Below are positions 1,508 through 16,917 of a stretch of DNA of 64,000 bases, in pieces; the stretch's first letter is position 1; each line of letters begins with the position of its first letter. Below the pieces are notes generated by a model. It was given only the letters and a program-made list of their open reading frames with translations, was not told where the DNA came from and searched no databases. A program made the translations under genes and the position numbers. Source of the DNA: Pectobacterium araliae (GTDB lineage Bacteria; Pseudomonadota; Gammaproteobacteria; Enterobacterales; Enterobacteriaceae); assembly GCF_037076465.1 (NCBI RefSeq), contig NZ_AP028908.1, forward strand, positions 3,038,001 through 3,102,000. Reading direction: 5' to 3'.

Positions 1508-1597
1508 GTCGTCATACTGGTAATGCCACTGGTGGCCGCTGCCGTCGGTAAAGGTGCTGACCAGTCCGGTATCACCCAGATAGGCAAATTCCACCAC
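1508..1597 (-). pseudogene. Rhs core fragment (recombination scar)
   Basis: About 75-90 bases match the minus-strand Rhs core near 15049-15117 of the intact rhs gene in this window (YD-repeat region), with a few substitutions. The match stops abruptly at the CCACC before base 1600, where symE sequence on the opposite strand begins. Too short to encode anything. It records a deletion that fused the inside of an Rhs gene to a symE gene. Confidence 0.75.
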
Positions 1598-1599
1598 CC

Positions 1600-1725
1600 A
1601 ACCCGCCGTCAGCGATTAACCTCAAAGGCCGCTGGCTGGAAGAGTCGGGTTTTATGACCGGGATGCCGATAACAGTGACGGTTGAGCGGGGAAGGATAGT
1701 GATTGAGACGGAGATTAATCTGTGA
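1600..1725 (+). pseudogene. symE: symE remnant, copy A
   Basis: The last 41 codons of a SymE-type toxin are present (SAINLKGRWLEESGFMTG through RIVIETEINL), nearly identical to the intact copy at 11870-12094. The first 30 or so residues, the start codon and the ribosome-binding site were lost at the junction with the Rhs fragment. The final residue is Leu instead of Val. The usual terminator and a convergent immunity gene follow, as at the other two copies. Confidence 0.85.
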
Positions 1726-1746
1726 GCATTGAACTAAACAGCAGGT

Positions 1747-1791
1747 AAAATAAAGCCGGAAGGATCGTGAGGATCATTCCGGCTTTATTTT
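1747..1791. terminator. symE cassette terminator A
   Basis: A 15-bp perfect stem pairs 1747-1761 with 1777-1791 (core AAAGCCGGAA / TTCCGGCTTT), with A-rich and T-rich flanks. It can end transcription from both directions: symE from the left and the immunity gene from the right. Confidence 0.85.
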
Positions 1792-2322
1792 CTAATATTT
1801 CTCAAAAATGATATTATCAGGAGGAAAGTTATTAGGTAACGAGTCTGGTTTTATTTTCATTAATAAAATACCAGATAATAAAGACGTTATATTTTCATCA
1901 AAATATTCTATATCAGGGGATCTAGATGCAACTATTGCAGTTCCCCATGCATCACTGTTTTTTAGATCGGAAACAACCCAAAAAATATAATCACCATTAT
2001 CCGATACACCTATTGGTAAAAGTCCGTTTTTTTCTGGATAAAGATTATATTTAAAATAGTCAGGGTCTTCATTGTTAAGGTAACTAAAGCCCTCAATAAT
2101 TAATTTTTTTTGCTCAAAAAAATTAAGATCATGATTTTGAGTAAATGGACTAAATATCGCAATAAAATTAGCAATTCGTCCCGTACCATAGCTACTGATA
2201 AACTCAACATAGTCATTAGGAAATGTAATGCTTTCATCTATAGAAGGCCAAGCATCACCGCTACCAGACTCATTAGGAAAAGCAGGTGGAACTAAAATGC
2301 TATTTAATTTAGGCATGGTCAT
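1792..2322 (-). CDS. SUKH (SMI1/KNR4) family immunity protein
   Basis: A 176-residue protein with SUKH-fold sequence features: ITFPNDYVEFISSYGTGRI near residues 32-52 and LPIGVSDNGDYIFW near 101-114. SUKH proteins are common immunity partners of nuclease toxins. The gene starts 3 bases after the Rhs tip at 2326-3600 and is read in the same direction, so it is presumed to neutralise that endonuclease. ATG 2322 is preceded by an AGGA; ATG 2316 is an alternative. The gene is AT-rich compared with the Rhs core, as is usual for exchanged tip-immunity pairs. No frame damage is seen. Confidence 0.8.
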   Translation of the reverse strand: MTMPKLNSILVPPAFPNESGSGDAWPSIDESITFPNDYVEFISSYGTGRIANFIAIFSPFTQNHDLNFFEQKKLIIEGFSYLNNEDPDYFKYNLYPEKNGLLPIGVSDNGDYIFWVVSDLKNSDAWGTAIVASRSPDIEYFDENITSLLSGILLMKIKPDSLPNNFPPDNIIFEKY

Positions 2323-2325
2323 GAT

Positions 2326-3600
2326 TTACATTCCTGGAGGATTAAGAAGAGTAACGCTTTCAAAGAAGCCGCCACTACCTTGAGCATTCATTGTTATACC
2401 CGCAGGTATTCTAGAAGGACCTTTATAGATAGGCGTTACCGATACATCAACTATTTCCCCTCGTTCTAACGCTTTTCTTATACGTCCTTCGATACTGCTC
2501 ATATCTGGGGTATTCATTGGACGATGTTGAATAGTAACCAAATTACGTATATCATCGCCGGAACCGCCCAATTGCCGCCCTAACAAATGTCCACGAGCAC
2601 GATTAGAACCTGCTCCTGTAATAAATCCAGGTGGTTGAATGGCAGGGTTGGCATGCGTACCTGTATTTATATAGCTTGAATCTAAGCGAGCTTTCACACC
2701 AGTTGGGCGACCCAGGTGATCCAATTCACCGTATCGTGTATTACAACCAGCCAACCCAAACGGATCAACCCAGCAGACCGGATTCTGAACGTAAGCGTAA
2801 TTATTCTCTCCCCCCAATACCCCTATCGGGTCAGGCGAGACATAGCATCCACCACTCGGATCATAATAGCGAAAACGGTTATAACATAGCCCGCTTTCGC
2901 TGTCACGGTATTGCCCGGCAAACGCCAGTCCCGGATCAAGACTTTCAATATTATCTGTATAGCGCTGGCCCCATAAGTTGGTGCGCGGAGCCTGCCAGCG
3001 CAGTTCGCCTTGCGGATTAAAAACTGCCTGCGGTTCACCATTATGGCCGCTGGTGACAAAGTCCGTTTCCCAACTACCGTCTGTATTTTGCCGCTGTTGT
3101 ACCAGCAGCTCCCAGCCGTTATGCACCCAGTGACGGCGGCTGATAAGTTGGTTGTCGCGGTAGTGACGCACTTCAGCTATCTGGTCGCCGTCCCACAGGT
3201 AGCGGATATCTTCACGGGTCTGGCCGCAGCGCTTGCCGATGCGTCGGCCAAACGGGTCATAGCGGTAGAACCAACGCTCTCCGGTCGGCGTGTCCACGAC
3301 TCTAAGCTGGTTACGGCTGTCCCAGCGGTAGTGCCACACCTGTGGCCGGTAGCCCGGCTGCACCACCTGTTTGCGTATCAGCCTTCCGGCCTTGTCGTAC
3401 TGGTAGTGGGTGTTGTCCTGTTGGGTCAGGCGTCCGGCCTGCCAGTCAGTCAGCCTTGTCGCGTCCTGTGGCAGGCCACTGCGGGTGTAGCGGTATTGTT
3501 CTTCAGTATCCGCGCTTCTGTGGCGAGCGACATCGTGAGTCAGCGTCAGCTCCACACCGTCTGGTGACAGTATCTGACGCAGTTCACCCGCACGCGTTGT
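2326..3600 (-). pseudogene. Orphan Rhs tip with non-specific endonuclease toxin domain
   Basis: The C-terminal part of an Rhs protein, without PAAR or N-terminal domains. YD repeats lead to the conserved RYYDPSGGCYVSPDPIG junction. A toxin of about 135 residues follows, with RARGHLLGRQLGGSGDDIRN, the His-containing signature of the DNA/RNA non-specific endonuclease family (Endonuclease_NS_2 type). The core also lacks about 80 residues that the intact rhs gene has before EEQYRYTRSG, and upstream it breaks off near 3600 where symE copy B begins. The frame stays open to a chance ATG at 3639, but no proper start is apparent. It is either a silent reservoir for recombination with the full rhs gene or a weakly expressed fragment. 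Its immunity gene is intact. Confidence 0.85.
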
Positions 3601-3614
3601 CGCTGAAAGTGCCG

Positions 3615-3806
3615 GTGAGTGCGGTGGAAAAAACAGCACGTTACTACACGGTGGGATACGCCCCGCATAACGGGAAGCCCAACCTGCCGTCAGCGATTAA
3701 CCTCAAAGGCCGCTGGCTGGAAGAGTCGGGTTTTATGACGGGGATGCCGATTACCGTTACGGTGGAACGGGGAAGGATAGTGATCGAGACGGAGATTAAT
3801 GTCTGA
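3615..3806 (+). pseudogene. symE: symE-like toxin, 5'-truncated copy B
   Basis: From ARYYTVGYAP to ETEINV this copy is almost identical to the intact SymE. The original start region is replaced by sequence at the Rhs breakpoint; a GTG at 3615 would give 63 residues beginning VSAVEKTARYY. SymE proteins have an AbrB-like fold; E. coli SymE is a type I toxin held in check by antisense SymR. Without its own 5' leader this copy is probably not expressed normally. Confidence 0.75.
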
Positions 3807-3830
3807 TCGTTGTACTAAACAGCAGATAAA

Positions 3831-3870
3831 AAATAGCCGGAAGGATCGTTGGGATCGCTTCCGGATTTTT
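3831..3870. terminator. symE cassette terminator B
   Basis: CCGGAA (3837-3842) and TTCCGG (3859-3864) pair around a loop with two GGATCG copies, followed by a T run. Same sequence and position as terminators A and C. Confidence 0.75.
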
Positions 3871-3872
3871 AT

Positions 3873-4304
3873 TTATAAATTATTATCAATAGACATCACG
3901 TATTTTTTCGCTTTTACTGACAAAAGCAAATCATTTCCAATGAAAACATATCCTACTAACTCATTATTCTCATTAATCTCTTCATAGACACCAGGATGAA
4001 GCTCTGTGCCATTAAGATAATTAGATAAACCAGAGTTTTTGTCAGTGCAATAAAAGAAGTCGAAAATTTTAAAGTCAAAATTAGCTATTCTATACCCAGC
4101 ATTATTATAAACTTCATCGGGCATGTCTGACTCGTCATGTAACTCGTTGCATTTAAGGTAACTGTTAATATCTTTTTCTCGGCTATCGGTACCTAAAAAA
4201 ACCAAAAAATGTACATTCAAATAGCTTCCTAAATAAGAAAAAAATGGTTCAGATACACTTTCCATAACCCATGGGAATTCAATATTTTTTAGTGAAAAAT
4301 TCAT
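3873..4304 (-). CDS. Putative Rhs-tip immunity protein (family not recognised)
   Basis: A 143-residue acidic, soluble protein that starts MNFSLKNIEFPWVMES. I do not recognise the family. The ATG at 4304 overlaps the stop of the preceding Rhs tip by four bases (ATGA), the coupling expected for a toxin-immunity pair. Low GC content, small size and location directly after a toxin tip support an immunity role, presumably against the tip at 4301-5056. It ends convergent with symE copy B and shares its terminator. Confidence 0.65.
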   Translation of the reverse strand: MNFSLKNIEFPWVMESVSEPFFSYLGSYLNVHFLVFLGTDSREKDINSYLKCNELHDESDMPDEVYNNAGYRIANFDFKIFDFFYCTDKNSGLSNYLNGTELHPGVYEEINENNELVGYVFIGNDLLLSVKAKKYVMSIDNNL

Positions 4305-5318
4305 TTAACCAACCTTATAACATCAAGAATAGTGTTGTTGTTCGGTCCTGGGGTAATAGGGATGGATAATCCAGGCATAGAGAACACTTCACCTCGTTGC
4401 CTTAGAGGTATTTCCTTCAATCTATTAAGCAAAGTCTCTGTAACTGGAACTTCTTTTAATATTGTTGGCTTCATTCCCGCCGCAGATATTGCCGCGAGAG
4501 TCCTATTGCTCTCAGCTATTCTTTGGCCTGTTTGAGGATGAATAAAATAGCTAACAGGTAATTGATCTGTATGCAAAACGCCACTTCTCAAATCACCAGC
4601 AACGTCATAGATACTTCGTCCTCGAATATAGTCAGGCGCATCAGAACCAACATTCCTAAACGTATCACTAATCCTTTTTTGACCGAACAGTAAATCACAA
4701 CCAGCCAACCCCAATGGATCAACCCAACTAATCGGATTAGGTGCGTAAGCGTAGTTATTTTCCTCACCAAGTAGCCCTATCGGGTCAGGCGAAATATAAC
4801 TACCACCACTTGGTTCATAATACCGAAATCTGTTATAGCACAAGCCACTTTCCGCGTCACGGTATTGACCGGCAAAGGCCAGTTCCGGATCGAGGTTTTC
4901 AGTATTATCTGTATAACGCTGGCCCCATAAATTGGTGCGTGGAGCCTGCCAGCGCAGCTCACCTTGCTGGTTAAATATGGCCTGCGGTTCGCCGTTATGG
5001 CCGCTGGTGACAAAGTCCGTTTCCCCACAGCCATCTGTATTTTGGCGTTGCTTCACCAGCAGATCCCTGCCGTCGTGTACCTAGTGGTGTCGGTGAACCA
5101 GTCCGCCACCGCGGTGGTGCCACACTTCCGCTATCTGTGGTCGCTATCCCACAGGTAGCGGGTCTTCATCGGGCTGGTCGCAGCGTTTATTGATGCGTCG
5201 CCCAATTTTCGCGGCTGGGTGTATCCGCTACTCTAAGCTGGCTGCGGCTGTCCCAGCGGTAGTGCTACACCTGCGGGCGGTAGCCCAGCCGCACCATCTG
5301 CTTGCGTATCATCTTTAG
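4301..5318 (-). pseudogene. Orphan Rhs tip with ParB-like toxin domain, decayed core
   Basis: Bases 4301-5056 hold an open frame with the end of the Rhs core (RFRYYEPSGGSYISPDPIG), then a tip of about 130 residues after GLAGC. The tip contains VSYFIHPQTGQRIAESNRTL and AAISAAGMKPT, reminiscent of the conserved box of ParB-like domains; this assignment is tentative. From 5057 to 5318 the upstream Rhs core can be followed as DNA but carries stops and frameshifts, and at 5319 it joins unrelated AHH sequence. No start region remains. It is coupled to an intact immunity gene through an ATGA overlap. Confidence 0.75.
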
Positions 5319-5442
5319 CATTTGACATTACTATGCGGTGTGCAGAGTTCTTATAGCTGGGAGCAACTTTCCCTGCAGCTTCCATGTTTTCACGTAACTT
5401 AAAACAACCAAGGGCATAAGTAATATCCCATATTGACAATTA
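5319..5442 (-). pseudogene. AHH-type nuclease toxin fragment
   Basis: On the minus strand this reads FKLRENMEAAGKVAPSYKN followed by SAHRIVMSNAKD. It resembles the N-terminal half of AHH-family Rhs/CDI nuclease tips, with the usual AHH reading AHR here. The domain is cut off at about 5319, where degenerate Rhs core in another frame follows, and there is no Rhs core in front of it. It begins directly after the immunity gene at 5444. A dead remnant of an older tip. Confidence 0.6.
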
Positions 5443-5443
5443 A

Positions 5444-5968
5444 TTATATTAATGACCAATCATCATTACTAGAATCCATTTGGCATATGAGGAACTCAAT
5501 ATCTTCAAATTGAACTAGATCTTCCTTTACTATTCTAGTCAAGTAATCCTTCTTGCAATTAATATGCGTGTATATTTCATCGGTAGAAAAAACAATAGAT
5601 ACGGAAAAAGAAAAATCAGAGGATGACAGGAAAATTGAAATAACCTCATTATACTCAGGATGAAAGAAGACTTTTATAAAATCAACTTTGAATGGTAAGA
5701 AATTATGCTCTTTACTTTCACTCAAAGCGGAATATGAAGCATGCAAATTAAAATCATCAAACTTATCAATATGATTAATAGAAATAAGTGGATTAGAACC
5801 ATTTATATAGAATCCTACCACATCGCTAAATTCTAACTCGAAGAATCTAACATTATCAATTAAATCACCATCTTCATCACTTATTAAAATAAGGTCAGAG
5901 ATAGTCTTACCATAGAAGAGATGCGAAATCTTCTTTAAAAAAGAGCGATGATAATTCGTTAATTTCAT
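5444..5968 (-). CDS. Putative Rhs-tip immunity protein (family not recognised)
   Basis: A 174-residue, AT-rich gene. The protein starts MKLTNYHRSFLKKISHLFYG and is rich in Phe, Ser, Asp and Ile, without membrane segments. I cannot name its family. ATG 5968 overlaps the toxin stop as ATGA, so it should be translated together with the tip at 5965-6363 and is presumed to be its antidote. No frame damage is seen. Confidence 0.65.
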   Translation of the reverse strand: MKLTNYHRSFLKKISHLFYGKTISDLILISDEDGDLIDNVRFFELEFSDVVGFYINGSNPLISINHIDKFDDFNLHASYSALSESKEHNFLPFKVDFIKVFFHPEYNEVISIFLSSSDFSFSVSIVFSTDEIYTHINCKKDYLTRIVKEDLVQFEDIEFLICQMDSSNDDWSLI

Positions 5969-6363
5969 TTAATTACCTCTTGCAAGAATGAGGATATTCT
6001 ATCTTTATGAAGAAATGTCAATATTTCATTCGTTGAGTTATTGACTAAAACCACAGCCTTGTCTTTCACATATGCACTTGTGGACTCAATTGTGTTCCAC
6101 TTGAATTTTGGATTGGCTAAATTACTGCCATCATTCACTATGGAAAGAATAAAATTCTTCATACCTTCCTTGTCCCCTTTTGCAACAGGAACGCCTAATT
6201 TCCTTGACGTTTCGTATATATCTTGAGCATGCTTCTTCAGCTTAGTTTCAAAATTGTTACTAAATTTAAAATCACAAGGTGCTAACCCAAGTGGATCGAT
6301 CCATGATATCGGATTTGGAACGTAAGCATAATTATTATCCCCGCCCGCTATCCCTATCGGATC
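5965..6363 (-). pseudogene. Orphan Rhs toxin tip (possible BECR-fold RNase), core lost
   Basis: The frame opens at the Rhs junction PIGIAGGDNNYAYVPNPISW, runs through IDPLGLAPC, and continues into a tip of about 95 residues. The tip contains KWNTIESTSAYVKDKAVVLV and NNSTNEILTFL, a beta-rich pattern like that of Barnase/EndoU/ColicinE/RelE-type (BECR) toxin ends; I infer this from pattern only. Everything upstream of the PIG codons is missing: the Rhs sequence stops at 6363, where the recombinase module begins. The gene has no start of its own but keeps an intact, coupled immunity gene. Confidence 0.7.
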
Positions 6364-7293
6364 ATAGGGACGATCCCGACACGGTCGTACTTTTTAGCGC
6401 ACTTAACTTATTGAAGTGGCTGGCTTTTCAGGAGACGTTTTCGGCCTATTTAACACCACCTTAACCCGAACAACCCGACGCGCACTTTTACCCCCGGACA
6501 CGCTACCGCCATGCTGTGACTTCCCTGTCTGCCTGTGCCACATCATAGCAGCGGCGTCAGCCGCTGCCATTAGTCGTTGTGTTAATGAACCGGGTTTTAT
6601 CGCGGCGCGAGCCGTTCCGCAGCTTGCCTGTGGGACGGTGAAGCGTCTGCCGGGTGCGGGCTGGCGAAGCCCGCAGGACAAGACGTTGAACAGGGAGGCC
6701 CCCGGCGGGGGCCGCACGGGGCGGAGATGGCGAGCACGGGAACGAGCAAGGAGCCTGCGACTGCGCGCCGGGCGCAGCCAGTGCAGCAGGGTCGGGGCGG
6801 GGGTGAGGTGAAGCCCTTCAGCGGAGGCCGCAGGCCGACAACCCTTGTTTTGTTGACGTTGACGCTGATGTTTGCTGAAGGATGACGCCGGAGCCTGCGC
6901 CGCCAGGGAGGGCGGCCACACCATCGGAGCCAGCAGGGAAGGAACTCGATGCCGATAGCAGAGCGAGCCTGCGAGCTGTGCCCCACACCGCGCCACGAAC
7001 CCGCCCCCGGCGGCCAGCCGCACGCCTTTGCCGAAGTCGCCGCAGCGCGCCCATGCGTTGAACGGCGCAGACATAATGTTCGTTACGCGTGGGTCGCGTT
7101 CAGCGGCTTTCGCGTAATGCCACATTATGTTGAATGACGTTCGGCCAGCAACGTGACCAACAGAGAGCGCCATTGTCTGGCGCTGGCCGGGCGGCATTTA
7201 CCGCCGGAGCGCCCATGCTGACCAAGGCAAGAGGTGCGCCATGGACGGCGCAGCTTTTGCCCTGCACCGTCCTGCGGGACTGAAGGGCGTGAG
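6364..7293. other. GC-rich, hairpin-dense non-coding tail
   Basis: About 930 bases without a convincing gene. Perfect or near-perfect hairpins follow one another: GGCCCCC/GGGGGCC (6697-6713), CTGCGC/GCGCAG (6761-6777), a nested stem ACATAATGT/ACATTATGT enclosing TTACGC/GCGTAA (7071-7130), AGCGCC/GGCGCT (about 7165-7185) and GGCGG/CCGCC (about 7188-7204). Open frames here begin without ribosome-binding sites and have protein composition typical of chance frames in GC-rich DNA. It may be a structured RNA, a replication origin for the primase, or folded recombination sites. Confidence 0.55.
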
Positions 7294-8346
7294 CTACTTT
7301 TTGTGACTGTCCGGCAATGTTGTAGCGTCCGGCTTGCGCTCGTCCCGCTTCTTTTTACGCCGCGCCTGCTGTTTCCGCTCTGCCGGATGGGTCTGTTCAT
7401 GCACCTTCTGTAAGTGTCCTATAGCAACCCGCGTATAGATTTGCGTGGTTTCCAGCTTTTCATGGCCGAGTATGGCCTGTATGTGTCGCGTGTCCGCGCC
7501 GTTCTCCAGCATCTGTGTGGCCATTGAGTGCCGGAACACATGGCACGCCCCCGGTTTATCAAGATGTCCCGTTTCCCGGATGGCTTTGCCCGCCATCTGC
7601 GTCAGCGTGACCCGCGCCAGTCCTTTTCCCCGCTGGCTGATAAACAGGTGTCCGCTGTCATACCGTTTCGCCAGTTCAGGCCGCGCATGATTCAGGTAGC
7701 GCGTCAGCCACTTACACGCCCGCTCACCCAGCGGCACCACCCGGTCTTTATTGCCCTTGCCCTGACGCACCACCATCACGCCCCGGCTCAGGTCGATATC
7801 GCTCAGCATCAGATTAGCTGCTTCTGTCCGGCGAACGCCCGTACTCCACAGCACTTCCAGTATCACCCGGTTACGCAGCCCGATAACGGTGCCGCTCTCC
7901 ACCGACTGTAATACGCCGCCGGTTTCTTCCACGCTCAGTACCTGCGCTGGCAGCCGCTTTTCCTCTTTCGGCAACGTCAGCATGTCCGCCGGGTTATACA
8001 GGATAATGTGGCGTTTCAGCAGCCAGCGGAACAGCATCCGGATAGCCGACAGGCGGTTTAACTGACTGCCCGCCGTTAACGGTCTGCCGTCTGCCTTGCG
8101 ATAGCCCCGCAGCCAGCGCTGATACCCTTCCAGCACGGACAGACTTACTTGTGGTGCATGAAGCAACCCTCTGTCCTCACACCACGCCACGAACGGCAGC
8201 AGCCGCTCCCGGTAACCTTCATGCGTGCGCGGGCTGTAGCCTGCCGCGCTCAGGTGTTCAAGGTAATGGTCGGTGTGCTGGCGCAACGTCTGCGTCTGGC
8301 GGCTAAGGTAAAGGGCTTCCGGTGTCGGGGATTTGGGTTGAGTCAT
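7294..8346 (-). CDS. XerC/XerD-like tyrosine recombinase
   Basis: A 350-residue site-specific recombinase. Residues 20-110 form the SAM-like core-binding domain (YLEHLSAAGYSPRTHEGYRE). The catalytic domain follows at about 125-310 with STGVRRTE (Arg), HVFRHSMAT (His-x-x-Arg), GHEKLETTQIY (His and nucleophilic Tyr). A basic tail (KQQARRKKKRDERKP) closes the protein. There is no arm-type N-terminal domain, so it is of the Xer/integron style and not the P4 style of the integrase at the island edge. It starts 33 bases after the primase stop, probably in one operon with it. The non-coding hairpin tail lies directly downstream. Confidence 0.92.
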   Translation of the reverse strand: MTQPKSPTPEALYLSRQTQTLRQHTDHYLEHLSAAGYSPRTHEGYRERLLPFVAWCEDRGLLHAPQVSLSVLEGYQRWLRGYRKADGRPLTAGSQLNRLSAIRMLFRWLLKRHIILYNPADMLTLPKEEKRLPAQVLSVEETGGVLQSVESGTVIGLRNRVILEVLWSTGVRRTEAANLMLSDIDLSRGVMVVRQGKGNKDRVVPLGERACKWLTRYLNHARPELAKRYDSGHLFISQRGKGLARVTLTQMAGKAIRETGHLDKPGACHVFRHSMATQMLENGADTRHIQAILGHEKLETTQIYTRVAIGHLQKVHEQTHPAERKQQARRKKKRDERKPDATTLPDSHKK

Positions 8347-8379
8347 GGCGGCGCGTCCTGCGTGAGGGTGAGAAGGGAA

Positions 8380-11298
8380 CTACGGTACGATGGGCTTATC
8401 GTGTGTTGCCGGAACAGTGTTTTTACCGTTAACCCGACCGGATGACGTGGAAGCTTTGCCAGTGCGGGCTTTAGCCACTGTTACCTTGTCCGACCGACTA
8501 CCGACCACCCCCCGACCTGAGGCCGACCGCTTTTTATTTACCCCCGACCGGACGAAGTCGTACTGGCTGTTATTGTCGGTTGTGGCTGAACTTGTTGGTG
8601 CTTCCAGCACGTCGATAAGCCCGCACAGATGCGCGTTATCGGCCTGTGTATCCCCGTCGAACAGCAGTTCATAGCAGAACGTCAGCCCCCGCTTGTGCAG
8701 CATCAGGTATTCCAGTTCAGCCAGTCGGGCAAGGTGGATTTTCAGTTGCGTATCGCCCCACTGCACCGCGTCCCGTAGCTGTTTGCGGGTGAAGTGAAGC
8801 TCTGCTTTCGGCTGGCCGCTCTCTTTTACCCATTGCTGTATCAGCATCAGCAACTTCCGCGTCTGCGGCGGCATTTCGTCCAGCGTCCGGCCAAGGATTT
8901 CATGCGCTAACCGATTGGCCAGCACGATATCCGACCGTTCGACCTCGATATACTCGATAACCGCGCCACGGTGCTCCACCGTCTTCACCTCCCGCTGGTA
9001 CTGATGCAACAGCGCGACAGACTGGATTAACGTCAGGTACTTCATATGGTCGCGGCGGGTGCGGGTTTTGTCGCTCAGGAACGTGAGCTGTGAGGCGAAC
9101 GGATTGACCACCCTGAGCGGGCGTAACAGCCGCTGCGCGTTCTGGTGCAGTTCGGTGAGATAGCCTTTCTCGTTCTCCATCAATAACCCTTCCAGCGTTT
9201 GTTTGTGGCGCTGCAACGCATGTATCGCTTCGGTCTGTTCGCGGGATTCGTTTACGGTGAGCACAAGGCAGCGGTTCAGCAGTTCTTCATCCACGTCGAT
9301 GGCCGTGGTGGTCAGCATCAGCATCACCGGACCTTTTACCGTGTACTGTTTGGTGACGAGGTTTCCCGTCGCATCATCCTTGCCCGTACTGGCTATCGTC
9401 AGTTCACCATCTGACTGGAGCAGTTTCAGTGCATACGCCGCCTGCCGCACACCTTCTTCTTCCGCGATGGCGAGGATTTTATGCTGGAGATTGGTTTCAC
9501 CGAGATAAAACAGGCTTTGCCCCGTCATGGCGCTGTACTGTAAGCGCTCTTCCGGCGGTATCAGGTTCAGCACCGCATCCATCAGTGAGGATTTCCCCGC
9601 CGCCGAACTGCTCTGGATGAGCACCGCTAACGGCCTGTCCAGCTTGCGCGACACCGCCGCCAGATAGCCCGCCACTAAGTTAGTGGATTCCCCCACCACA
9701 CCACAGGCGGCCAGGTCATCCGTCAGTCTGCCGATAAGGTTCGGGTCTTGCAGCAACGCCAGCGCCGCCGCTTTGGCGTCCTCATCCAGTTCAGGAACGC
9801 TTTCACCGTGGGTGTCCGGCTGGCTCAGATGGGTTTCCAGTGCCAGCAGCACCCGCCCCAGACTGCGTTTAATGTCGCTTTCCGCTAACCCCAGCTCTGA
9901 TGCGGCCAGCCGCGCATAGCCCGCCCGTGAACGGGCGCTCACCATGTCTACGCTGTCCGCGAACACCACACCACTTTCGGTGTCCAGTATCTGCGCGTTG
10001 ACCTTCATCACGCCGCTGCCCGCTTTCACCGACGCCATGCCCCGGATGCGCCAGTGCTGACCGGACAGCGTTATCTCCAGCTCACCGCCCGGCAGCGTTT
10101 CAACCACAACCCCGGCAACTAAAGAAGAGGCGGGTTGCGGCAAGGTTTCAGACTGTGGCGCGGCTTTACGCTGTGGCTCAGGAGCCGTGTCAGGCGTGGA
10201 TTCAACCCCGACCACTTCCCCCATTGGCAACGCCCCGTCAACCGCCGCACGGAACGCCAGTTCTGGCTCTGAGACCTTGCACAGGTACTCATTCGCATCC
10301 ATGCCCGCCGGGAACACCAGCCGGAACGGCGTGATACCGTCAGCCGCTAACACAGAAGCCAGTTTCACCGCGCCTTCATCGCCTGCCGCGTCGTTATCGA
10401 ACGCGATAAGTACCTGTTTCACGCCGTGACGGATAAAAGCCTTCCGCATCTCCTCGGTCACGCCGTTCACCCCATACGCCGCCGTTACGTTGCGGTAGCC
10501 TGCCACCCAGAAGCTCATCGCATCGATAAGGGATTCGCACAGGATGACCGTTTTACCTGCCACTAACGCCTGCTCGTTCCACACCCCGCCATGCGGCCCC
10601 GGCAGATACAGGTGCAGCGGTGTCCCTTTGCGTAACTCACTGCTGACCTTGCGCCCGTACAGCTCCTGCACCTGACCGTTAAGGTCGATAACCGGCACCA
10701 CGAGCGACCCCGCCAGATGTTCATGACCGGATGAACGCAGTATTCCCAGCGCCTGCAACTGACTACGGATGGCCGCGCCGTCTTTCAGTTTCTTCGGCGG
10801 CAGGCGATAACCCAGCGTGCGGTTGGCGAACCCCAACTTAAAGGCAGCGACTAACTCAGGATGATTGAGGCGGCGCTTTTCCAGATACGCGATGGCCTCC
10901 GGCGCATTCATCAGCGTGTGGTGATAGAAGTCGATAACACGCGTCAGTAACGCCTGCCGCTCCTGTTCATCCGCGATATCGCTGACAGGCGGCAACGGTG
11001 CCGCCGCAGGCACCACGCCAAGTTCACCCCGCAGGCGGTCAACCGCCCGGTGCAGGCTTAGCCCTTCCGTTTTCATCACCCAGTCCAGCACCGAGCCGCC
11101 TGCATCGCAGCCGAAGCAGTGATACAGGTTCTTGTCCGGCGAGATAACCATAGACGGGGTTTTCTCCTGATGGAACGGACACAGCACCACCACGTCTTTA
11201 CCGCGTTTGACTATCTGCCGACCCTGCGAGCGCACCACGTCCACTAACGGCACGGCGGCTTTCAGGTGCTGCAACTCGGATTCAGGGATGCGTGCCAT
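8380..11298 (-). CDS. CHC2/TOPRIM primase fused to a P-loop ATPase (primase-helicase)
   Basis: A 972-residue replication protein. The N-terminus has a DnaG-type zinc finger (CPFHQEKTPS, then YHCFGC), followed by a primase core and a TOPRIM domain (LCESLIDAMSFW and AFDNDAAGDEGA, about residues 255-310). The C-terminal half has a P-loop ATPase with Walker A SSSAAGKSS (about 570) and an acidic AIAEEEG box, which suggests a helicase. The tail is basic and rich in Gly, Ser and Lys, without clear structure. ATG 11298 is preceded by AAGGAGCC; an upstream in-frame start without such a site is unlikely. It diverges from xre across a shared promoter and operator region. No frame damage. Confidence 0.88.
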   Translation of the reverse strand: MARIPESELQHLKAAVPLVDVVRSQGRQIVKRGKDVVVLCPFHQEKTPSMVISPDKNLYHCFGCDAGGSVLDWVMKTEGLSLHRAVDRLRGELGVVPAAAPLPPVSDIADEQERQALLTRVIDFYHHTLMNAPEAIAYLEKRRLNHPELVAAFKLGFANRTLGYRLPPKKLKDGAAIRSQLQALGILRSSGHEHLAGSLVVPVIDLNGQVQELYGRKVSSELRKGTPLHLYLPGPHGGVWNEQALVAGKTVILCESLIDAMSFWVAGYRNVTAAYGVNGVTEEMRKAFIRHGVKQVLIAFDNDAAGDEGAVKLASVLAADGITPFRLVFPAGMDANEYLCKVSEPELAFRAAVDGALPMGEVVGVESTPDTAPEPQRKAAPQSETLPQPASSLVAGVVVETLPGGELEITLSGQHWRIRGMASVKAGSGVMKVNAQILDTESGVVFADSVDMVSARSRAGYARLAASELGLAESDIKRSLGRVLLALETHLSQPDTHGESVPELDEDAKAAALALLQDPNLIGRLTDDLAACGVVGESTNLVAGYLAAVSRKLDRPLAVLIQSSSAAGKSSLMDAVLNLIPPEERLQYSAMTGQSLFYLGETNLQHKILAIAEEEGVRQAAYALKLLQSDGELTIASTGKDDATGNLVTKQYTVKGPVMLMLTTTAIDVDEELLNRCLVLTVNESREQTEAIHALQRHKQTLEGLLMENEKGYLTELHQNAQRLLRPLRVVNPFASQLTFLSDKTRTRRDHMKYLTLIQSVALLHQYQREVKTVEHRGAVIEYIEVERSDIVLANRLAHEILGRTLDEMPPQTRKLLMLIQQWVKESGQPKAELHFTRKQLRDAVQWGDTQLKIHLARLAELEYLMLHKRGLTFCYELLFDGDTQADNAHLCGLIDVLEAPTSSATTDNNSQYDFVRSGVNKKRSASGRGVVGSRSDKVTVAKARTGKASTSSGRVNGKNTVPATHDKPIVP

Positions 11299-11325
11299 AA
11301 CAGGCTCCTTACAAAAATGCGTCAA

Positions 11326-11362
11326 GGTCATTATTGACCTATAATATAGGAGTCATTATAAT
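11326..11362 (+). promoter_or_regulatory. Promoter and operator of xre, divergent from primase
   Basis: TTGACC (11334-11339) and TATAAT (11357-11362) are 17 bases apart, near-consensus for sigma-70, and point to the xre start at 11397. The -35 box is the right half of the palindrome GGTCATTATTGACC (11326-11339). The octamer GTCATTAT in this palindrome recurs at 11352-11359 across the -10 box. Xre binding here would repress itself and control the primase, which starts at 11298. Confidence 0.7.
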
Positions 11363-11396
11363 TACTTCAAGGGTTAATTTTAAAAGGACGTTTATC

Positions 11397-11795
11397 ATGC
11401 AGAGTAAACAACTTAACTGGCTTTGTTTCTCCATGAGTGATTTTGGTAAGCGTCTGGCTGCGCTGCGTAAGGCAAGACAGCTAACACAGATAGAACTGGC
11501 GAACCTGCTGGACATTCAGCCCCGGATGCTGGGGCGATGGGAACAAGGGCAGGTTAAGCCACAGTTTGATTACATCATTAAACTGGCTCAGTTTCTTGAA
11601 GTCAGCATTGACTATATGCTGCTGGGAGATAAGAACACGCCTGCACCTGTTTTTGACATTAAAAACAAGCGATTAAAAGAGTTATGCAAGCAGGTTGATG
11701 AACTTAAGGCAGACGATCAGGAAGTGATATGCCGTATTCTGGATATGGCGATCACACAGGAGAAGATGAAGCAGGTAATGAAGACAATGCGTTGA
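11397..11795 (+). CDS. Xre-family transcriptional regulator
   Basis: A 132-residue DNA-binding protein. A helix-turn-helix of the HTH_3 type spans about residues 13-70 (FGKRLAALRKARQLTQIELA, then QPRMLGRWEQG). A helical C-terminal part (RLKELCKQVDELKADDQEVI) may serve for dimerisation. ATG 11397 follows AAAAGGACG; a second ATG at 11433 has no clear ribosome-binding site. It is divergent from the primase gene and has a strong promoter overlapped by a palindrome, the usual layout of a phage-type repressor that represses the replication and recombination genes of its element. Confidence 0.87.
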   Translation: MQSKQLNWLCFSMSDFGKRLAALRKARQLTQIELANLLDIQPRMLGRWEQGQVKPQFDYIIKLAQFLEVSIDYMLLGDKNTPAPVFDIKNKRLKELCKQVDELKADDQEVICRILDMAITQEKMKQVMKTMR

Positions 11796-11804
11796 TATTT
11801 AACG

Positions 11805-11838
11805 CGGCTGCTACAGGAGGCAACCTGTAACAGCCGCT
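11805..11838. terminator. Long hairpin between xre and symE
   Basis: GCGGCTGCTACAGG (11805-11818) and CCTGTAACAGCCGC (11825-11838) form a 14-bp stem with one mismatch. There is no T run, so it is either a weak terminator after xre or a structure in the symE leader. Confidence 0.55.
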
Positions 11839-11869
11839 CACCACAAGCAACTAAACGAGGTAGTTAATC

Positions 11870-12094
11870 ATGGCTAAGGCACATTCTAAGTCAGGCGTCA
11901 CCGTTAATACAGCAACTAAAACAGAACGTTACTACACGGTGGGATATGCTCCGCAAAACGGCAAGCCAAACCCGCCGTCGGCGATTAACCTTAAGGGTCG
12001 CTGGCTGGAGGAGTCGGGCTTTATGACCGGGATGCCGATAACGGTGACGGTCGAGCGGGGAAGGATAGTGATTGAGACGGAGATTAATGTCTGA
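11870..12094 (+). CDS. symE: SymE-family toxin, intact copy C
   Basis: A complete 74-residue gene and the only intact one of three copies. The protein starts MAKAHSKSGVTVNTATKTER, followed by the conserved YYTVGYAPQNGKP, LKGRWLEESGFMTGMPITV and the end ETEINV. SymE has an AbrB-like fold; in E. coli it is a damage-induced toxin controlled by the antisense RNA SymR. An antisense promoter would be expected over the 5' leader, but I cannot place it. I see no LexA box. ATG follows ACGAGG. It is convergent with the immunity gene of the full Rhs effector. Confidence 0.8.
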   Translation: MAKAHSKSGVTVNTATKTERYYTVGYAPQNGKPNPPSAINLKGRWLEESGFMTGMPITVTVERGRIVIETEINV

Positions 12095-12117
12095 TCGTTG
12101 AACTAAACAGCAGATAA

Positions 12118-12162
12118 AATCAAAGCCGGAAGGATCGTTGGGATCGCTTCCGGATTTATTTA
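12118..12162. terminator. symE cassette terminator C
   Basis: CCGGAA (12126-12131) and TTCCGG (12148-12153) pair around the same GGATCG-containing loop as in terminators A and B, followed by ATTTATTT. It serves symE and the convergent immunity gene. Confidence 0.75.
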
Positions 12163-12166
12163 AAGA

Positions 12167-12529
12167 CTAAGTGCGTAAGCTATAAATATCCTTCGCTTCC
12201 TCATCCATGTCTAGGCTACCAAGAGCACCAAGATCTAGACTATAAATTTTATCACTATTATCATGAAGATAAATAAAATACCCTATATCCCCATCCTGAC
12301 CAATTAAAAAATAATTAGGTTCAACATCTTGTATTGTATATGTTTTGTTTCTTTCAATTACATCATGATAGTTATAAATATAAATTAAATCACCACGCGA
12401 ATTTTGGATTTCATAAGCTTCATTTTCGCCAACCTCTTCAAACAAGAATTTTTTATATGCGATAGGCAACCCTTTGCCTATAAATTTTTCTATATCTACT
12501 AATTTTTCCATCGCTTTATTTTTATCCAC
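12167..12529 (-). CDS. SUKH (SMI1/KNR4) family immunity protein
   Basis: A 120-residue SUKH-type protein: GLPIAYKKFLFEEVGENEAY near residues 19-38 and YFLIGQDGDIGYFIYL near 73-88. It follows the full rhs gene by 20 bases in the same direction and is presumed to protect the cell and its kin against the SHH-type nuclease tip. The frame starts with GTG at 12529 and weak ribosome-binding signals; ATG at 12511 is an alternative. Confidence 0.82.
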   Translation of the reverse strand: MDKNKAMEKLVDIEKFIGKGLPIAYKKFLFEEVGENEAYEIQNSRGDLIYIYNYHDVIERNKTYTIQDVEPNYFLIGQDGDIGYFIYLHDNSDKIYSLDLGALGSLDMDEEAKDIYSLRT

Positions 12530-12549
12530 AAAAAGTCACCGCGCATTTA

Positions 12550-15500
12550 TTAAATATTAAAAAATGGGTTGCCAATATTACTTTCTCTCAATCCATCAAA
12601 ATATTTGTATGCATCACTAAGGGCTTTTTTAGCCTGTCCAGAAGGAACTCCTGCATCAAGCATCTCCCTATAGCTTGTATTGAACTCTTGTTTCAAAGAG
12701 GTATCCCATCCCCCAGACATAGCTCTTCTCGCTCGCTGGGCTGCGCTAATTTTAGCGTGAGGGCTGCCCGATGCAGATCCTAATAATGTAGCGGGGGCCG
12801 AATTTCTCTGATATCCGTCGATTCTTTTCTTAGCCCAAGCATCTTGGATAGGATGATGACTTTGAACAAAACCATCAGACTTAGTATTCCGATGACCTGA
12901 TGCCCTGTTTGCATTTGGTGATAAATTACCATGAGGGTCAACATCACCTTTTTTATATCCGTTCGGTGAATTGCACTTCGCCAACCCCAGAGGATCAACC
13001 CACGTATTCGGATTCGGTACATACCCATAGTTACTCTCACCCCCCGCTATCCCTATCGGGTCAGGCGAGACATAGCATCCACCACTCGGATCATAATAGC
13101 GAAAACGGTTATAACATAGCCCGCTTTCGCTGTCACGGTATTGCCCGGCAAAGGCCAGTCCCGGATCGAGATTTTCAGTATTATCGGTATAGCGCTTCCC
13201 CCATAAGTTGGTGCGCGGAGCCTGCCAGCGCAGTTCGCCTTCCGGATTAAAAATGGCCTGCGGTTCGCCGTTATGGCCGCTGGTGACAAAGTCCGTTTCC
13301 CAGCTACCGTCCGTATTCTGGCGTTGTTGTACCAGCAGCTCCCAGCCGTTATGCACCCAGTGGCGGCAGCTGATAAGCTGGTTGTCGCGGTAGTGCCGCA
13401 CTTCGGCAATCTGGTCGCCGTCCCACAGGTAGCGGAGTTCGTCCTGCGTTTGCTCACAGCGCTTGCCGATGCGCCGTCCGAACGGGTCGTAGCGGTAGTA
13501 CCAGCGCTCTCCCGTTGGGGTATCAACAACCCTTAGCTGGTTACGGCTATCCCAGCGGTAATGCCACACCTGCGGCCGGTAGCCCGGCTGTACTACCTGT
13601 TTACGTATCAGTCGCCCGGCCTTGTCGTACTGGTAGTGAGTGTTATCCTGCTGGGTCAGGCGTCCGGCCTGCCAGTCGGTCAGGCGGGTGGCATCCTGCG
13701 GCAGGCCACTGCGGGTGTAGCGGTATTGTTCTTCAGTATTGATGCTGCGCCCCGCGCCACCGCTCAGCACCGACAGCACGCGCCCGCTGGCATCGAGCTG
13801 ATAGCCAGCCGCTTCGCGGTTGCGTCGGGTGCCGGTCAGGTTGCCTGCACCGTCGTAGAGGTATTCCCGCGTCTGGGTGGGGTGCAGGCGACCGTCCACC
13901 GACTGGCCACTCATTTCCCGCGTCAGCCAGCCCATGGCGTCGTATTCACGCTGCTGTGTAAAACCGCCATTGCTGTGGCGGGTAGATTCACGTCCGGCGG
14001 CATCATGAGCCAGCGTTAACTCCGCGCCATCCGGCAACTGTACCTGGCGCAGTTCACCCGTCGCACTATAGCGGAAGGTGCTGGTCAGTGCCGCACTGTC
14101 CTCTTCACCGTCCCAGTACAGGCTGCGGGACACGGTGTGCGATGCGTCCTGATAGTGGCGTCGGATGACCGAACCGCTGTTGTACTCCTGCACCACCCGG
14201 TCACGCTCGTCATATTCAAGCCGGATATGACTGGTGGCGGACGTGACTTCAGTCAGCCGACCTGCCGCGTCATAGCGGTAGTGCAGGGTGTCGTCCGGCG
14301 CGGTTTCCTTAATCAGCAGTCCGCGTCCGTCGTACAGAAAGTGGCGAGTTTCTCCTTCGCCATTGCGGATGCTGATGCAGTGGCCGTCTTCGTCATAGCC
14401 ATAGTGGGTCTCCGTGCCCGCCATGTCGCGTTCACGTATGACACGTCCGTCTGCATCCAGCCACCACTGCCAGCGGTTGCCGTCCGGTGCCGTAACGCAG
14501 ACAAGCTGCTGGCTTTCTTTGTCGTACTCGTACTGCCAGGTGCGGCCTGCCGCATCGGTGCGTGAGGTCAGCAGGTCAAACGCGCCATAGGTTTGTGCCC
14601 ATACTGCGCCGTTGCCGTCGGTGTAGTTCAGCAGGTTGTTATGTTTGTCGTACTGGCGCTGCTCTTGCTTGTCATCCGGGCGCAGCAGTTGCTCCGGTAG
14701 CTTCCAGCTTGCACGGCGATAACCGAGGCGGTAGGTTGAACCGTCCGGGCGCGTCCAGCTTGTGAGTCGGTCCTGCGGGTCGTAGCGCAGTTGCTGAGTG
14801 CGGGATTCTGCATCCGTGGCACTCATCAGGCGCTGCCGGTGGTCATAAAACAGGCTGGCCTGTACCTGACCGTTCTGGTCGCTGACTTCAGTCAGCAGGC
14901 CATAGCGGTTCCAGGCAAAACGCACTTCGCTGTTGTCCGGCCCGGTCAGGCTCTGCGGATTACCGGTGCTGTCGTACTGCCACGCCCAACTTCGGCCCAG
15001 GGGGTCGGTGATGCCGGTCAGCCGCTCGTAATGGTCATAGTTGTAGTGCCACTGGTGGCCGCTGCCGTCGGTAAAGGTACTGACCAGCCCGCTGTTGTCC
15101 AGATAGGCAAATTCCACCACCCGCCCTGCCGGAGAGATTTCCCGCAGCAGGTTGCCGACGTCATCGTATTCATAATGGGTGACATGGCCGAGTGGGGATT
15201 TCTCCCAGGCCATCAGGTAGAGGTCATTGAAGCCATATTCACTGCGTTGGCCCTGTCCGTCAGTCATCACCACGCGGTCGGTCAGGTACTCAAAACCGGC
15301 GGTCAGGTAGCCGTCAGCACAGGTGGTGTAAATGCACCGCCCCTGAAGGTCATACTCATAATGCGCCCAGGTTTTATCGTTGTCGTGCCAGCGAGTCAGA
15401 CGGCTATGGTTGTCATACTCGTAAAACAGGTGATAGGCATGGGCGGCATCCGCCTCGACCAGTCGCCCCTGTTCGTCCTGCCGGTATTCGGCCAGCATGG

Positions 15501-16917
15501 TTTTCTGGCCGCCATCAATGCGCTGTATCTGACGCAGAAACTCACCCTGCCACACCAGCAACAGCTCGATGCTGTCGCTGTGCCGTATTTTACGCAGGTA
15601 GCCTTTGGGGTCGCGGAGAAAGTCGATACGATTCTGGTGGTTGTCGGTAATGGCCGACAACAGCAACTGGTCGCCCTGTTTGACGGTAAAGGCACGCCAG
15701 GTCTGGCTGTCGCGGTGCCACAGGTGAAAACCGTTATGCCGCTTGACCAGTTTAAATTCGGGGTATTCGGCGCAGTACACCACGGTGGCACCGAGCCCGA
15801 AAGTGAAGTCGATATCGTAGCCCTGCGCCAGCGTAATGGTGACATGGGGGGCACCGTTATCGTCGCTGAGGGTCGCGACTTCACTCCAACTATCGTGCCA
15901 GCCGTGGCCCAGCAAGCCAGTGTGGGGGCTACCAGAGCGGTAGGTGCGTTCAAACAACAGAGGAATGGTCTGGCCCAAGTCCAGATCGAGGCGTTTTTCA
16001 ATGACCTCGCCACTGGCGATATAGACGGGGTCTTTCAGGAAGCCGCGAACGGATTCGGTGACACGCGCCAGTCCTTTACTGTTCTTAAAACCATTTTTGG
16101 CACACTCTACGGCACTACGGAGTCCTTTCAGGGCGAATGATGCCCCGGCCTGCATGCCCCTCAGCACCGCCATCGGCCCTTTAGTGAAGAGTTTGCCCAG
16201 TCCCCGAAACAGGCCCCGGCTGGGGGGCACCAGAAACTCCACCGCGAGTATCAGCGCCTTCTGCCAGCCACTGAACTCATCCTGAACCTTGAGCGGCGAA
16301 GCCTGACCGGAGCCGAAGAACACTGTTGAAGCCCCCTCTTTGAGGGTCGCGCCGCACACAGTTTTATCCCCCACCCGTGCGGCATGGTAGCCCTCAACGA
16401 ACACGGTTTCACTGCCCTGGGCAATCAGTTGCGGGCCGTTATGTTTATCGCAAAGCACCGCATCGATTTCGGCGCGGGACACTGGGTTGCCCTCGACAAA
16501 CACGGTCTTTGAACCACCTTTGACCATACCCGACGCAGGCATGACACTGTCTACCATGGCAGCGGTCTTTCGACTGACATCGGAGATTAAGCCACTCAAC
16601 GCGAATACAGCCCCGAATCCAAGCGCCAGTTTGGCTGCACCGATAACCAGAGCCAGTCCTGCTCCGCCCGTTACCCCGGTTAACAATACCAGGCCGGCAA
16701 CGACAGCAGAGGCAGCGGCAAACGCGACGGCGGCGACCAGCGCCCCAGCCACCGCACCAAGCAGCGCCCCCAGAAAGCTGCTGTGTTTGATAGCCTTGCC
16801 CGGTGAGGTCGGCGGCGAGCCGCTGCCGGGTGCCGGTAAATCAGGCGGTAACGTCGGTCGATTGCCCGCGTGCATCGCGCCCACCCGTGCAATACGGGAG
16901 AGGATTTCATCACGCAT
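12550..16917 (-). CDS. rhs: PAAR-Rhs type VI effector with SHH-signature nuclease tip
   Basis: A full-length Rhs effector of 1455 residues. Two hydrophobic segments lie at about residues 50-110 (pre-PAAR membrane segments). A PAAR domain follows at about 125-205 (GGSKTVFVEGNPVSR, FVEGYHAARVGDKTVCG) and caps the VgrG spike. A DUF6531-like segment and the long YD-repeat shell come next, ending in RYYDPSGGCYVSPDPIG. The tip of about 135 residues contains FVQSHHPIQDAWAKKR, the signature of the HNH/Endo VII Tox-SHH family. ATG 16917 overlaps the eagR stop by eight bases; an in-frame ATG at 16971 lies inside eagR and is less likely. It is in one operon with hcp, vgrG, eagR and the immunity gene. 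Confidence 0.93.
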   Translation of the reverse strand: MRDEILSRIARVGAMHAGNRPTLPPDLPAPGSGSPPTSPGKAIKHSSFLGALLGAVAGALVAAVAFAAASAVVAGLVLLTGVTGGAGLALVIGAAKLALGFGAVFALSGLISDVSRKTAAMVDSVMPASGMVKGGSKTVFVEGNPVSRAEIDAVLCDKHNGPQLIAQGSETVFVEGYHAARVGDKTVCGATLKEGASTVFFGSGQASPLKVQDEFSGWQKALILAVEFLVPPSRGLFRGLGKLFTKGPMAVLRGMQAGASFALKGLRSAVECAKNGFKNSKGLARVTESVRGFLKDPVYIASGEVIEKRLDLDLGQTIPLLFERTYRSGSPHTGLLGHGWHDSWSEVATLSDDNGAPHVTITLAQGYDIDFTFGLGATVVYCAEYPEFKLVKRHNGFHLWHRDSQTWRAFTVKQGDQLLLSAITDNHQNRIDFLRDPKGYLRKIRHSDSIELLLVWQGEFLRQIQRIDGGQKTMLAEYRQDEQGRLVEADAAHAYHLFYEYDNHSRLTRWHDNDKTWAHYEYDLQGRCIYTTCADGYLTAGFEYLTDRVVMTDGQGQRSEYGFNDLYLMAWEKSPLGHVTHYEYDDVGNLLREISPAGRVVEFAYLDNSGLVSTFTDGSGHQWHYNYDHYERLTGITDPLGRSWAWQYDSTGNPQSLTGPDNSEVRFAWNRYGLLTEVSDQNGQVQASLFYDHRQRLMSATDAESRTQQLRYDPQDRLTSWTRPDGSTYRLGYRRASWKLPEQLLRPDDKQEQRQYDKHNNLLNYTDGNGAVWAQTYGAFDLLTSRTDAAGRTWQYEYDKESQQLVCVTAPDGNRWQWWLDADGRVIRERDMAGTETHYGYDEDGHCISIRNGEGETRHFLYDGRGLLIKETAPDDTLHYRYDAAGRLTEVTSATSHIRLEYDERDRVVQEYNSGSVIRRHYQDASHTVSRSLYWDGEEDSAALTSTFRYSATGELRQVQLPDGAELTLAHDAAGRESTRHSNGGFTQQREYDAMGWLTREMSGQSVDGRLHPTQTREYLYDGAGNLTGTRRNREAAGYQLDASGRVLSVLSGGAGRSINTEEQYRYTRSGLPQDATRLTDWQAGRLTQQDNTHYQYDKAGRLIRKQVVQPGYRPQVWHYRWDSRNQLRVVDTPTGERWYYRYDPFGRRIGKRCEQTQDELRYLWDGDQIAEVRHYRDNQLISCRHWVHNGWELLVQQRQNTDGSWETDFVTSGHNGEPQAIFNPEGELRWQAPRTNLWGKRYTDNTENLDPGLAFAGQYRDSESGLCYNRFRYYDPSGGCYVSPDPIGIAGGESNYGYVPNPNTWVDPLGLAKCNSPNGYKKGDVDPHGNLSPNANRASGHRNTKSDGFVQSHHPIQDAWAKKRIDGYQRNSAPATLLGSASGSPHAKISAAQRARRAMSGGWDTSLKQEFNTSYREMLDAGVPSGQAKKALSDAYKYFDGLRESNIGNPFFNI

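Follow-up and report, generated by a model that had tools for sequence, protein, structure and literature searches.

How Rhs and CdiA genes acquire unrelated in-frame toxin tips together with the matching immunity gene, with the old tip kept, has been an open question since displaced tips were described. It is raised by a Rhs locus of Pectobacterium araliae, which was analysed within a window of 64,000 nucleotides (nt) taken from contig NZ_AP028908.1 (positions 3,038,001 to 3,102,000 of the forward strand; G000:C1:3038001-3102000) of a host genome of 4.66 Mb in a single contig. The window carries a unit of 6,699 bp (13062..6364, minus strand) comprising, in this order, a toxin tip, an immunity gene, SymE, an RstR-like repressor, a primase-helicase, an Xer-type recombinase and a structured tail. 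This unit is very probably an integrative element by which Rhs toxin tips are swapped through site-specific recombination. Read from the sequences, its boundaries are exact, its tip is fused in frame, old tips are displaced, units are stacked and identical copies lie in different carriers; the same codons are used across genera, and one locus is represented in both the empty and the occupied state.

The unit starts at the Asp-Pro codons of a DPIG motif within an intact PAAR-Rhs gene (16971 to 12550, minus strand) and finishes at a second DPIG ahead of a displaced tip. The two DPIG sites are direct repeats. The sequence to the left of the first is Rhs core (..TCGCCT/GACCCG/ATAGGG; slashes mark joins) and that to the left of the second is element end (..TCGTCCCTAT/GATCCG/ATAGGG), so the unit is placed at 13062..6364 and includes the tip and the immunity gene. 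The unit appears to bring its own tip and to move the old tip downstream. An earlier note, made from the letters of this stretch, had drawn a module of repressor, primase-helicase, Xer-like recombinase and structured tail, inserted at the Rhs DPIG codons between 6364 and 11838. All four components, the tail being GC-rich (guanine plus cytosine), were recovered where it had placed them (open reading frames, ORFs; Pfam and NCBIfam), and its left end at 6364 does abut the in-frame DPIG of a core-less Rhs tip. Its right end was too short, since SymE, the putative immunity gene and the tip of the intact Rhs gene also belong to the unit and the other attachment (att) site is the DPIG at 13062. The tip and immunity gene, overlooked in that reading, are the cargo. 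Insertion at DPIG codons therefore stands for the ends of the unit and fails for its extent, the second end lying elsewhere, at 13062; an element running past 11838 had been named in the note beforehand as grounds for refuting it, and on the right such an element was found. The features are as follows.

13063..16971, minus strand: delivery part and core of the carrier PAAR-Rhs gene, up to the att codons, outside the unit (Pfam PAAR_motif, RHS_repeat; sequence ahead of the site)
13057..13062, minus strand: core-side att site GACCCG, which encodes Asp-Pro of DPIG and forms the first end of the unit (three identical units are bounded by the same codons)
12550..13062, minus strand: cargo toxin tip 1, Tox-SHH (HNH/EndoVII superfamily), in frame with the Rhs core (PF15652, E 1.5e-38)
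12167..12529, minus strand: cargo putative immunity gene 1, weakly SMI1/KNR4-like (PF09346, 20.3 bits, below the cut-off of 25.4; position behind the tip)
11870..12094, plus strand: symE (PF08845, 85.6 bits, cut-off 29)
11397..11795, plus strand: RstR-like XRE repressor, divergent from the primase (PF01381; NF041951 RstR, 78.9 bits, cut-off 80)
8380..11331, minus strand: primase-helicase, 983 amino acids, with DnaG-like Zn ribbon and Toprim and a C-terminal ATPase that is perhaps MCM-like (Pfam; DnaG structures)
7294..8346, minus strand: Xer-type tyrosine recombinase, subfamily NF002331 (565 bits, cut-off 371; XerD 1a0p alignment over the catalytic region)
6364..7293, no strand assigned: tail of 930 nt, GC-rich and structured, whose conserved element end occupies 6364-6413 (end model, tail alignments)
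6358..6363, minus strand: att site at the far end, GATCCG, the unit stopping just ahead (end model and sequence)
5965..6363, minus strand: tip 2, a displaced orphan that lacks a core (the element end is followed by an in-frame DPIG; no Pfam family)
5444..5968, minus strand: putative immunity gene 2 (by position, an ORF behind tip 2; no Pfam family)
1549..5439, minus strand: older displaced tips with core pieces and genes behind them (DPIG at 4786 and 2832)
near 3630-3831 and 1549-1750, plus strand: symE remnants among the older tips

Three further units (U1, U2 and U3) were found elsewhere in the host genome, each of 6,591 bp, with 0 mismatches in every pairwise comparison. U1 and U2 stand in tandem; U3 lies 1.06 Mb away in a different Rhs gene. 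All three stop at the same codons as the unit in the window. Identity extends beyond the unit for 5 nt on the left (U1/U3) and for 2 to 11 nt on the right, depending on the pair. At the protein level, the last 88 residues of the window's core end and join are 52% identical to the U1 carrier and 58% identical to the U3 carrier. Since identical units stand behind different cores, homologous recombination in the core is inadequate as an explanation, and one site-specific exchange accounts for the pattern.

The spread of such ends was surveyed with the recombinase, which was scanned against 84,980 species genomes; from the 259 relatives recovered, the 80 best, at 71 loci, were retained. An initial DPIG pattern caught only 31 of 95 xerC rows, because numerous contigs end at the join and the required residues are missing from some tips. 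A model of the element end (56 nt) was used instead and gave 65 hits in the window and 89 loci, in 57 distinct contexts. The ends run on as in-frame DP[ILFMV]G in 44 of these; 7 are on contigs ending at or just before the join and 6 are other. Among the exceptions, L041 joins DPLN of a Rhs tip, L059 lies at other codons resembling Rhs core and L057 is cut off. The same exact ends thus recur in unrelated flanks, both in U1 to U3 and across the 57 contexts, as expected of an integrative element with site-specific ends. Within the order, the primase was detected at E<=1e-120 in 12 of 394 sampled genomes, the host included (8 of 114 genera). The GC content of primase and recombinase was 58-60% in Photorhabdus L045 and Xenorhabdus L084, which are loci of 46-47% (locus L049, 55%).

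In the site, GACCCG is flanked by two arms, each about six bases long (CCCTAT and ATAGGG). The Ile of DPIG is encoded by ATA in 49 of 49 distinct Entero/Pecto sites, while the adjacent Ile of W-I-DP is ATA in 3 of 21. The DPIG Ile was ATA in 6 of 18 cases in Rhs genes of other genomes of the order, these comparison genomes not having been individually checked for the element (20 sites; 18 of 29 loci inspected). In Photorhabdus and Xenorhabdus the DPIG codons are variable. The ATA bias supports, without proving, a constraint on the site at the level of DNA.

An empty and an occupied state of one locus were obtained from E. coli. Positions 6300-11900 of the window were compared by megablast with 5,426 E. 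coli genomes; relatives were present in 61, at 193 places, none covering 80% of the query. In WP3-S18-ESBL-09 (L111) and CI5 (L115), between ybfA and ybgA (an interval which we take to be the rhsC locus of K-12), the site is empty, reading core/GATCCG/tipC, and the order is Rhs core-tipC, immunity gene, symE, ybgA. The occupied state, core/GACCCG/tipA .. end/GATCCG/tipC, was found in L002, L112, L113, L114 and L116. The first unit in EC9, D6, QA-1986 630 and d1-58 comprises core-tipA, immunity gene, symE, repressor, primase and xerC, the second brings another tip (tipB or, in d1-58, a papain-fold tip), and behind the second unit stand tipC with its unchanged immunity gene, symE and ybgA. At the empty site, GAYCCG has T in third position; this T remains with tipC at the far end, and the core now has C with tipA. 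This base travels with its tip, which places the exchange point at GA.

The tipC piece was present in 87 of the 5,426 genomes, always at 99% or above. Among the 60 rows listed, the annotation gave an RHS protein in 30, two hypothetical proteins in 25 and two hypothetical proteins with an RHS feature in 5; one of the 5 mixed rows is the second d1-58 record, and the other d1-58 record has an orphan tip. The sequence-level check covered 2 fused and 5 orphan cases. For tipB, 20 rows were listed at 99.9% or above, all annotated as orphans, and 38 records reach 99%; two rows at 80% fall under a DUF4150-domain protein. S10 carries a single unit whose tail end matches the type of the other unit, for which reason it was dropped as a candidate one-insert intermediate.

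On these alignments the cargo is variable on a constant backbone. The 66 different tips fall in 51 clusters. Within-strain E. coli pairs have backbone blocks at 0.91-1.00, and neighbouring units of E. coli D6 agree at 0.55 and 0.54 in the first two 500-column blocks (cargo) and at 1.00 in ten consecutive backbone blocks. Toxin-antitoxin pairs (RelE/ParE type with a partner) adjoin xerC in L003 (29-630), L142 (9920-10509) and L143 (10054-10642).

The backbone genes were compared with known families. The recombinase scored 565.2 bits with the Xer-like subfamily model NF002331 (PRK01287), above its cut-off of 371, and 237 and 236 bits with the chromosomal XerC and XerD models (TIGR02224, TIGR02225), below their cut-offs of 335 and 330. 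The catalytic Arg, Lys, His-x-x-Arg, His and Tyr are all present in an alignment with XerD (1a0p). The primase resembles DnaG structures over its N-terminal half, both in sequence (2au3, E 7.8e-46) and in fold. Its AlphaFold model is weak (predicted local distance difference test, pLDDT, 65; predicted template modelling score, pTM, 0.38), and Foldseek matches of the ATPase to MCM helicases (E 2.6e-7 and weaker) made on that model give an MCM-like assignment as a lead only. The primase-helicase with its divergent RstR-like repressor suggests a repressible replicon. Tails measured 913-987 nt in most of 47 unique cases (extremes 805 and 1,096), with a GC content of 62-67% in 30 tails. An alignment of 33 tails folded at -319 and -342 on the two strands, compared with -184 to -208 for six column shuffles each; in the shared helices the ratio GU:AC on the xerC strand was 67:115. 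The tail is strongly structured on both strands. No Rfam family reached its gathering score in the window, and the longest open stretches varied in length and frame among 30 tails, so that the tail appears to be non-coding. It may serve as a replication origin, as an RNA or as both.

In its free form the element would be circular, made up of tip, immunity gene, symE, repressor, primase, recombinase and tail, with the tail end rejoined to the tip through GAYCCG; its replication might be carried out by the primase-helicase under control of the repressor. The unit's Xer-type recombinase, as the presumed catalyst, would join the GAYCCG site of the circle to the corresponding codons in a resident Rhs gene. 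The resident core would thereby be fused in frame to the incoming tip, with the immunity gene directly behind, and the old tip and its immunity gene would be shifted behind the element. Later insertions at the new core/tip join would give tandem stacks of units. Excision and transfer between cells would complete the cycle, and SymE and the tail could each have a part in it. Genes for passage between cells were not seen in the unit. The earlier note had offered a site preference or a role in tip exchange as alternatives; both fit, the site being the means and the exchange the result.

Among deposited sequences, a free circle is best indicated by a Lonsdalea populi record of 11,289 bp. It was deposited as a circular plasmid and holds two units, both of whose joins read end/GACCCG/tip; a Rhs core site was not found in it. 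A Shigella circle of 8,758 bp is not clean and includes a core fragment and an insertion sequence (IS). The draft contigs L022, L027 and L034 each equal exactly one unit (of 14 inspected with ends), and L029 opens with a circle-type join, GTCCCTAT/GACCCGATAGGG. These contigs and the L029 join fit circles and tandem copies alike.

Several points weigh against an integrative element of this kind. Recombination itself was not observed. In Photorhabdus thracensis, L040, L050 and L051 lack a DPIG to the right: a normal Rhs core stands to the left of L050, L040 has no DPIG at all, and L051 lies outside Rhs and adjoins a frame that by eye is terminase-like. Shared descent may account in part for the ATA bias. 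The Lonsdalea circle is a single deposited assembly, in which one unit is missing xerC together with a portion of the primase; 0 of 39 whole draft contigs showed a direct terminal overlap of at least 15 nt, and an excision helper was not identified. All 193 of the 193 E. coli places are chromosomal. S10 is probably a deletion product, and the matches listed include no intermediate in which tipB is joined to the core. Some E. coli carrier genes are marked frameshifted or partial in the annotation (d1-58, S10) and that of D6 is short, and recombinases are annotated as frameshifted in QA-1986 630 (twice) and EC9 (once). The older tips in the window, at 4786 and 2832, retain core pieces, so homologous recombination also acts. 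The P. thracensis loci L038, L040, L049, L050, L051 and L062 represent many copies in one genome, some with non-Rhs right flanks, and are perhaps a burst with off-target insertions.

Some of these points would be accounted for if tips were swapped by RecA-dependent homologous recombination in the Rhs core, as proposed by Jackson (2009), with the primase/xerC module hitchhiking between tips. The core pieces retained by the two older window tips would fit, as would the homogenised backbones of neighbouring E. coli units and the resemblance of S10 to a homologous deletion. Displacement by core homology predicts shared core at the join, whereas identity stops 5 nt into the core (U1/U3), the window core end is only 52% and 58% identical to the carriers of identical units, and the ends fall on one codon pair across genera. 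We consider this account very improbable. The Jackson 2009 displacement model (PMC2935791) has new tips push old ones downstream by way of circular intermediates, both of which our reading shares; it requires core homology and no integrase, whereas the unit has its own recombinase and a join at two codons.

Another possibility keeps the same mechanism and differs only in the beneficiary: a selfish integrative replicon in which tip, immunity gene and SymE are addiction genes and tip exchange is a by-product without gain to the host. SymE and the immunity gene within the unit, the toxin-antitoxin genes adjoining xerC in some relatives and the three identical copies in a single genome are all consistent with it. 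The placing of the tip in frame with a delivery protein, and a cargo far more diverse than the backbone, argue the other way, and we regard this reading as unlikely. A primase-helicase, a repressor and an integrase are common genes of phage satellites, and since the unit has all three, movement in the particles of a helper phage was also weighed. No structural, packaging or capsid-redirecting gene was recognised in the unit (ORF list, main-protein scans), viral contigs held no close relative (11 loci at 27-34%, and two short alignments, one of 110 residues at 47% and one of 38 residues at 55%), and the phage rows listed match the primase part only, at 24-31%. A phage or satellite origin was sought in viral contigs and phage matches and found no support; it is the least probable of the accounts considered. 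Relaxase or conjugation genes, the trait of integrative conjugative and integrative mobilizable elements (ICE/IME), were likewise absent from the unit's annotated genes (ORF list; main proteins scanned). The absence of capsid, conjugation and transposase genes noticed earlier thus agrees with the genes detected in the unit.

The site-specific element resembles several known systems. In the PilV shufflon, alternative C-terminal ends are joined to a constant gene by the tyrosine recombinase Rci through inversion of local segments; end-swapping by a tyrosine recombinase is shared, whereas here new ends come on a mobile unit with an immunity gene. The element e14 integrates inside the reading frame of icd and supplies a replacement 3' end giving nearly the same protein; the unit likewise integrates in frame and supplies an end, which here is an unrelated toxin domain. 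Integron gene cassettes are also small circles inserted by a tyrosine recombinase into stacked arrays, with the integrase encoded outside the cassette. Here each full unit encodes its own recombinase, which is not of integron type (129 bits with the NCBIfam integron integrase model, cut-off 265), and its cargo consists of the second half of a gene. The unit appears cassette-like and shufflon-like yet is neither, having its own recombinase and new domains from outside. Xer-using elements at dif have a similar Xer-like recombination with two arms around six bases; dif sites near vgrG are mentioned in PMC10210955. The unit differs from these in having its own recombinase and in targeting Rhs/CdiA codons, not dif. 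The earlier note knew of no named element of this build, and none was found in searches of open-licence PubMed Central papers; other journals or preprints may have one.

A relative in the host genome (recombinase 46%, primase 57%), at L016 (G000:C1:2405001-2424900; 7095 and 14434), follows a gene called CdiA-like on account of its VENN motif. Its orphan tip begins after ..GACGTTGTT/GTGGAGAATAAC, and the intact CdiA-like gene has ..AATGCG/GTGGAGAATAAC. VENN also follows the same kind of end in Xenorhabdus L084 and Enterobacter IncFII plasmid L142, with the variants VDNN and ADNN in Photorhabdus L085 and L089. Six bases, GTGGAG (Val-Glu), lie between inverted arms at this site. By these joins, a sister recombinase clade appears to act alike at VENN of CdiA. 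Locus L144 was not counted, its VENN codons being upstream of the module and not after a recognised end. Other joins were at YNYFR of Rhs (L134, L078), at NAGKGT (L133) and at ASGVLQT beside an FHA-like gene (L145). In L133 (G347:C1:1958001-1977900), tips stand at NAGKGT codons at 1376, 3320, 10082, 16799 and 16997, two of them directly after units. In a tree of 80 recombinases, a single clade of 53 rows (100/100) holds 21 of 21 DPIG rows and another of 7 rows (100/100) holds 4 of 4 VENN rows, with NAGKG and ASGVLQ as separate pairs; target labels were automatic and left 47 of the 80 rows unlabelled, so these groupings are based on 33 rows, and the deep forks are weakly supported. Distant relatives also occur on Leptospira plasmids. 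One of them, L146 of Leptospira noguchii, has a distant repressor-primase-recombinase set that adjoins ParA/ParB genes and follows the gene of a large hypothetical protein.

These elements probably, with some reserve, form a broad unnamed class of domain-swapping replicons with one backbone, whose recombinase clades are each specialised on conserved pre-toxin codons of other carriers. The backbone would comprise a repressor, a DnaG-MCM-like primase, an Xer-type recombinase and a structured tail (aligned in two clades), and the targets would be DPIG and YNYFR in Rhs, VENN and NAGKG in CdiA-like genes and ASGVLQT beside the FHA-like gene. Such a class would provide a general machinery for tip exchange of contact-dependent toxins across secretion systems, with an att site preserved as DNA inside a protein motif. 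The unit pairs an integrase with a replication gene, and the question of tip acquisition becomes reducible to one enzyme and a short site. DPIG and VENN would then be partly recombination sites, tip arrays would be readable as a record of insertions, and the ongoing change of bacterial Rhs weapons would be explained.

A VgrG and a DcrB-domain protein are encoded upstream of the Rhs gene in the window, so the carrier has type VI features. Between repressor and primase, promoter-like divergent sites occur at 11334 (plus) and 11384 (minus), by consensus only. The older tips at 1549-5439 look like former units stripped of their backbone. A second, unrelated phage-type integrase gene lies at 197-1411, at the edge of the Rhs region.

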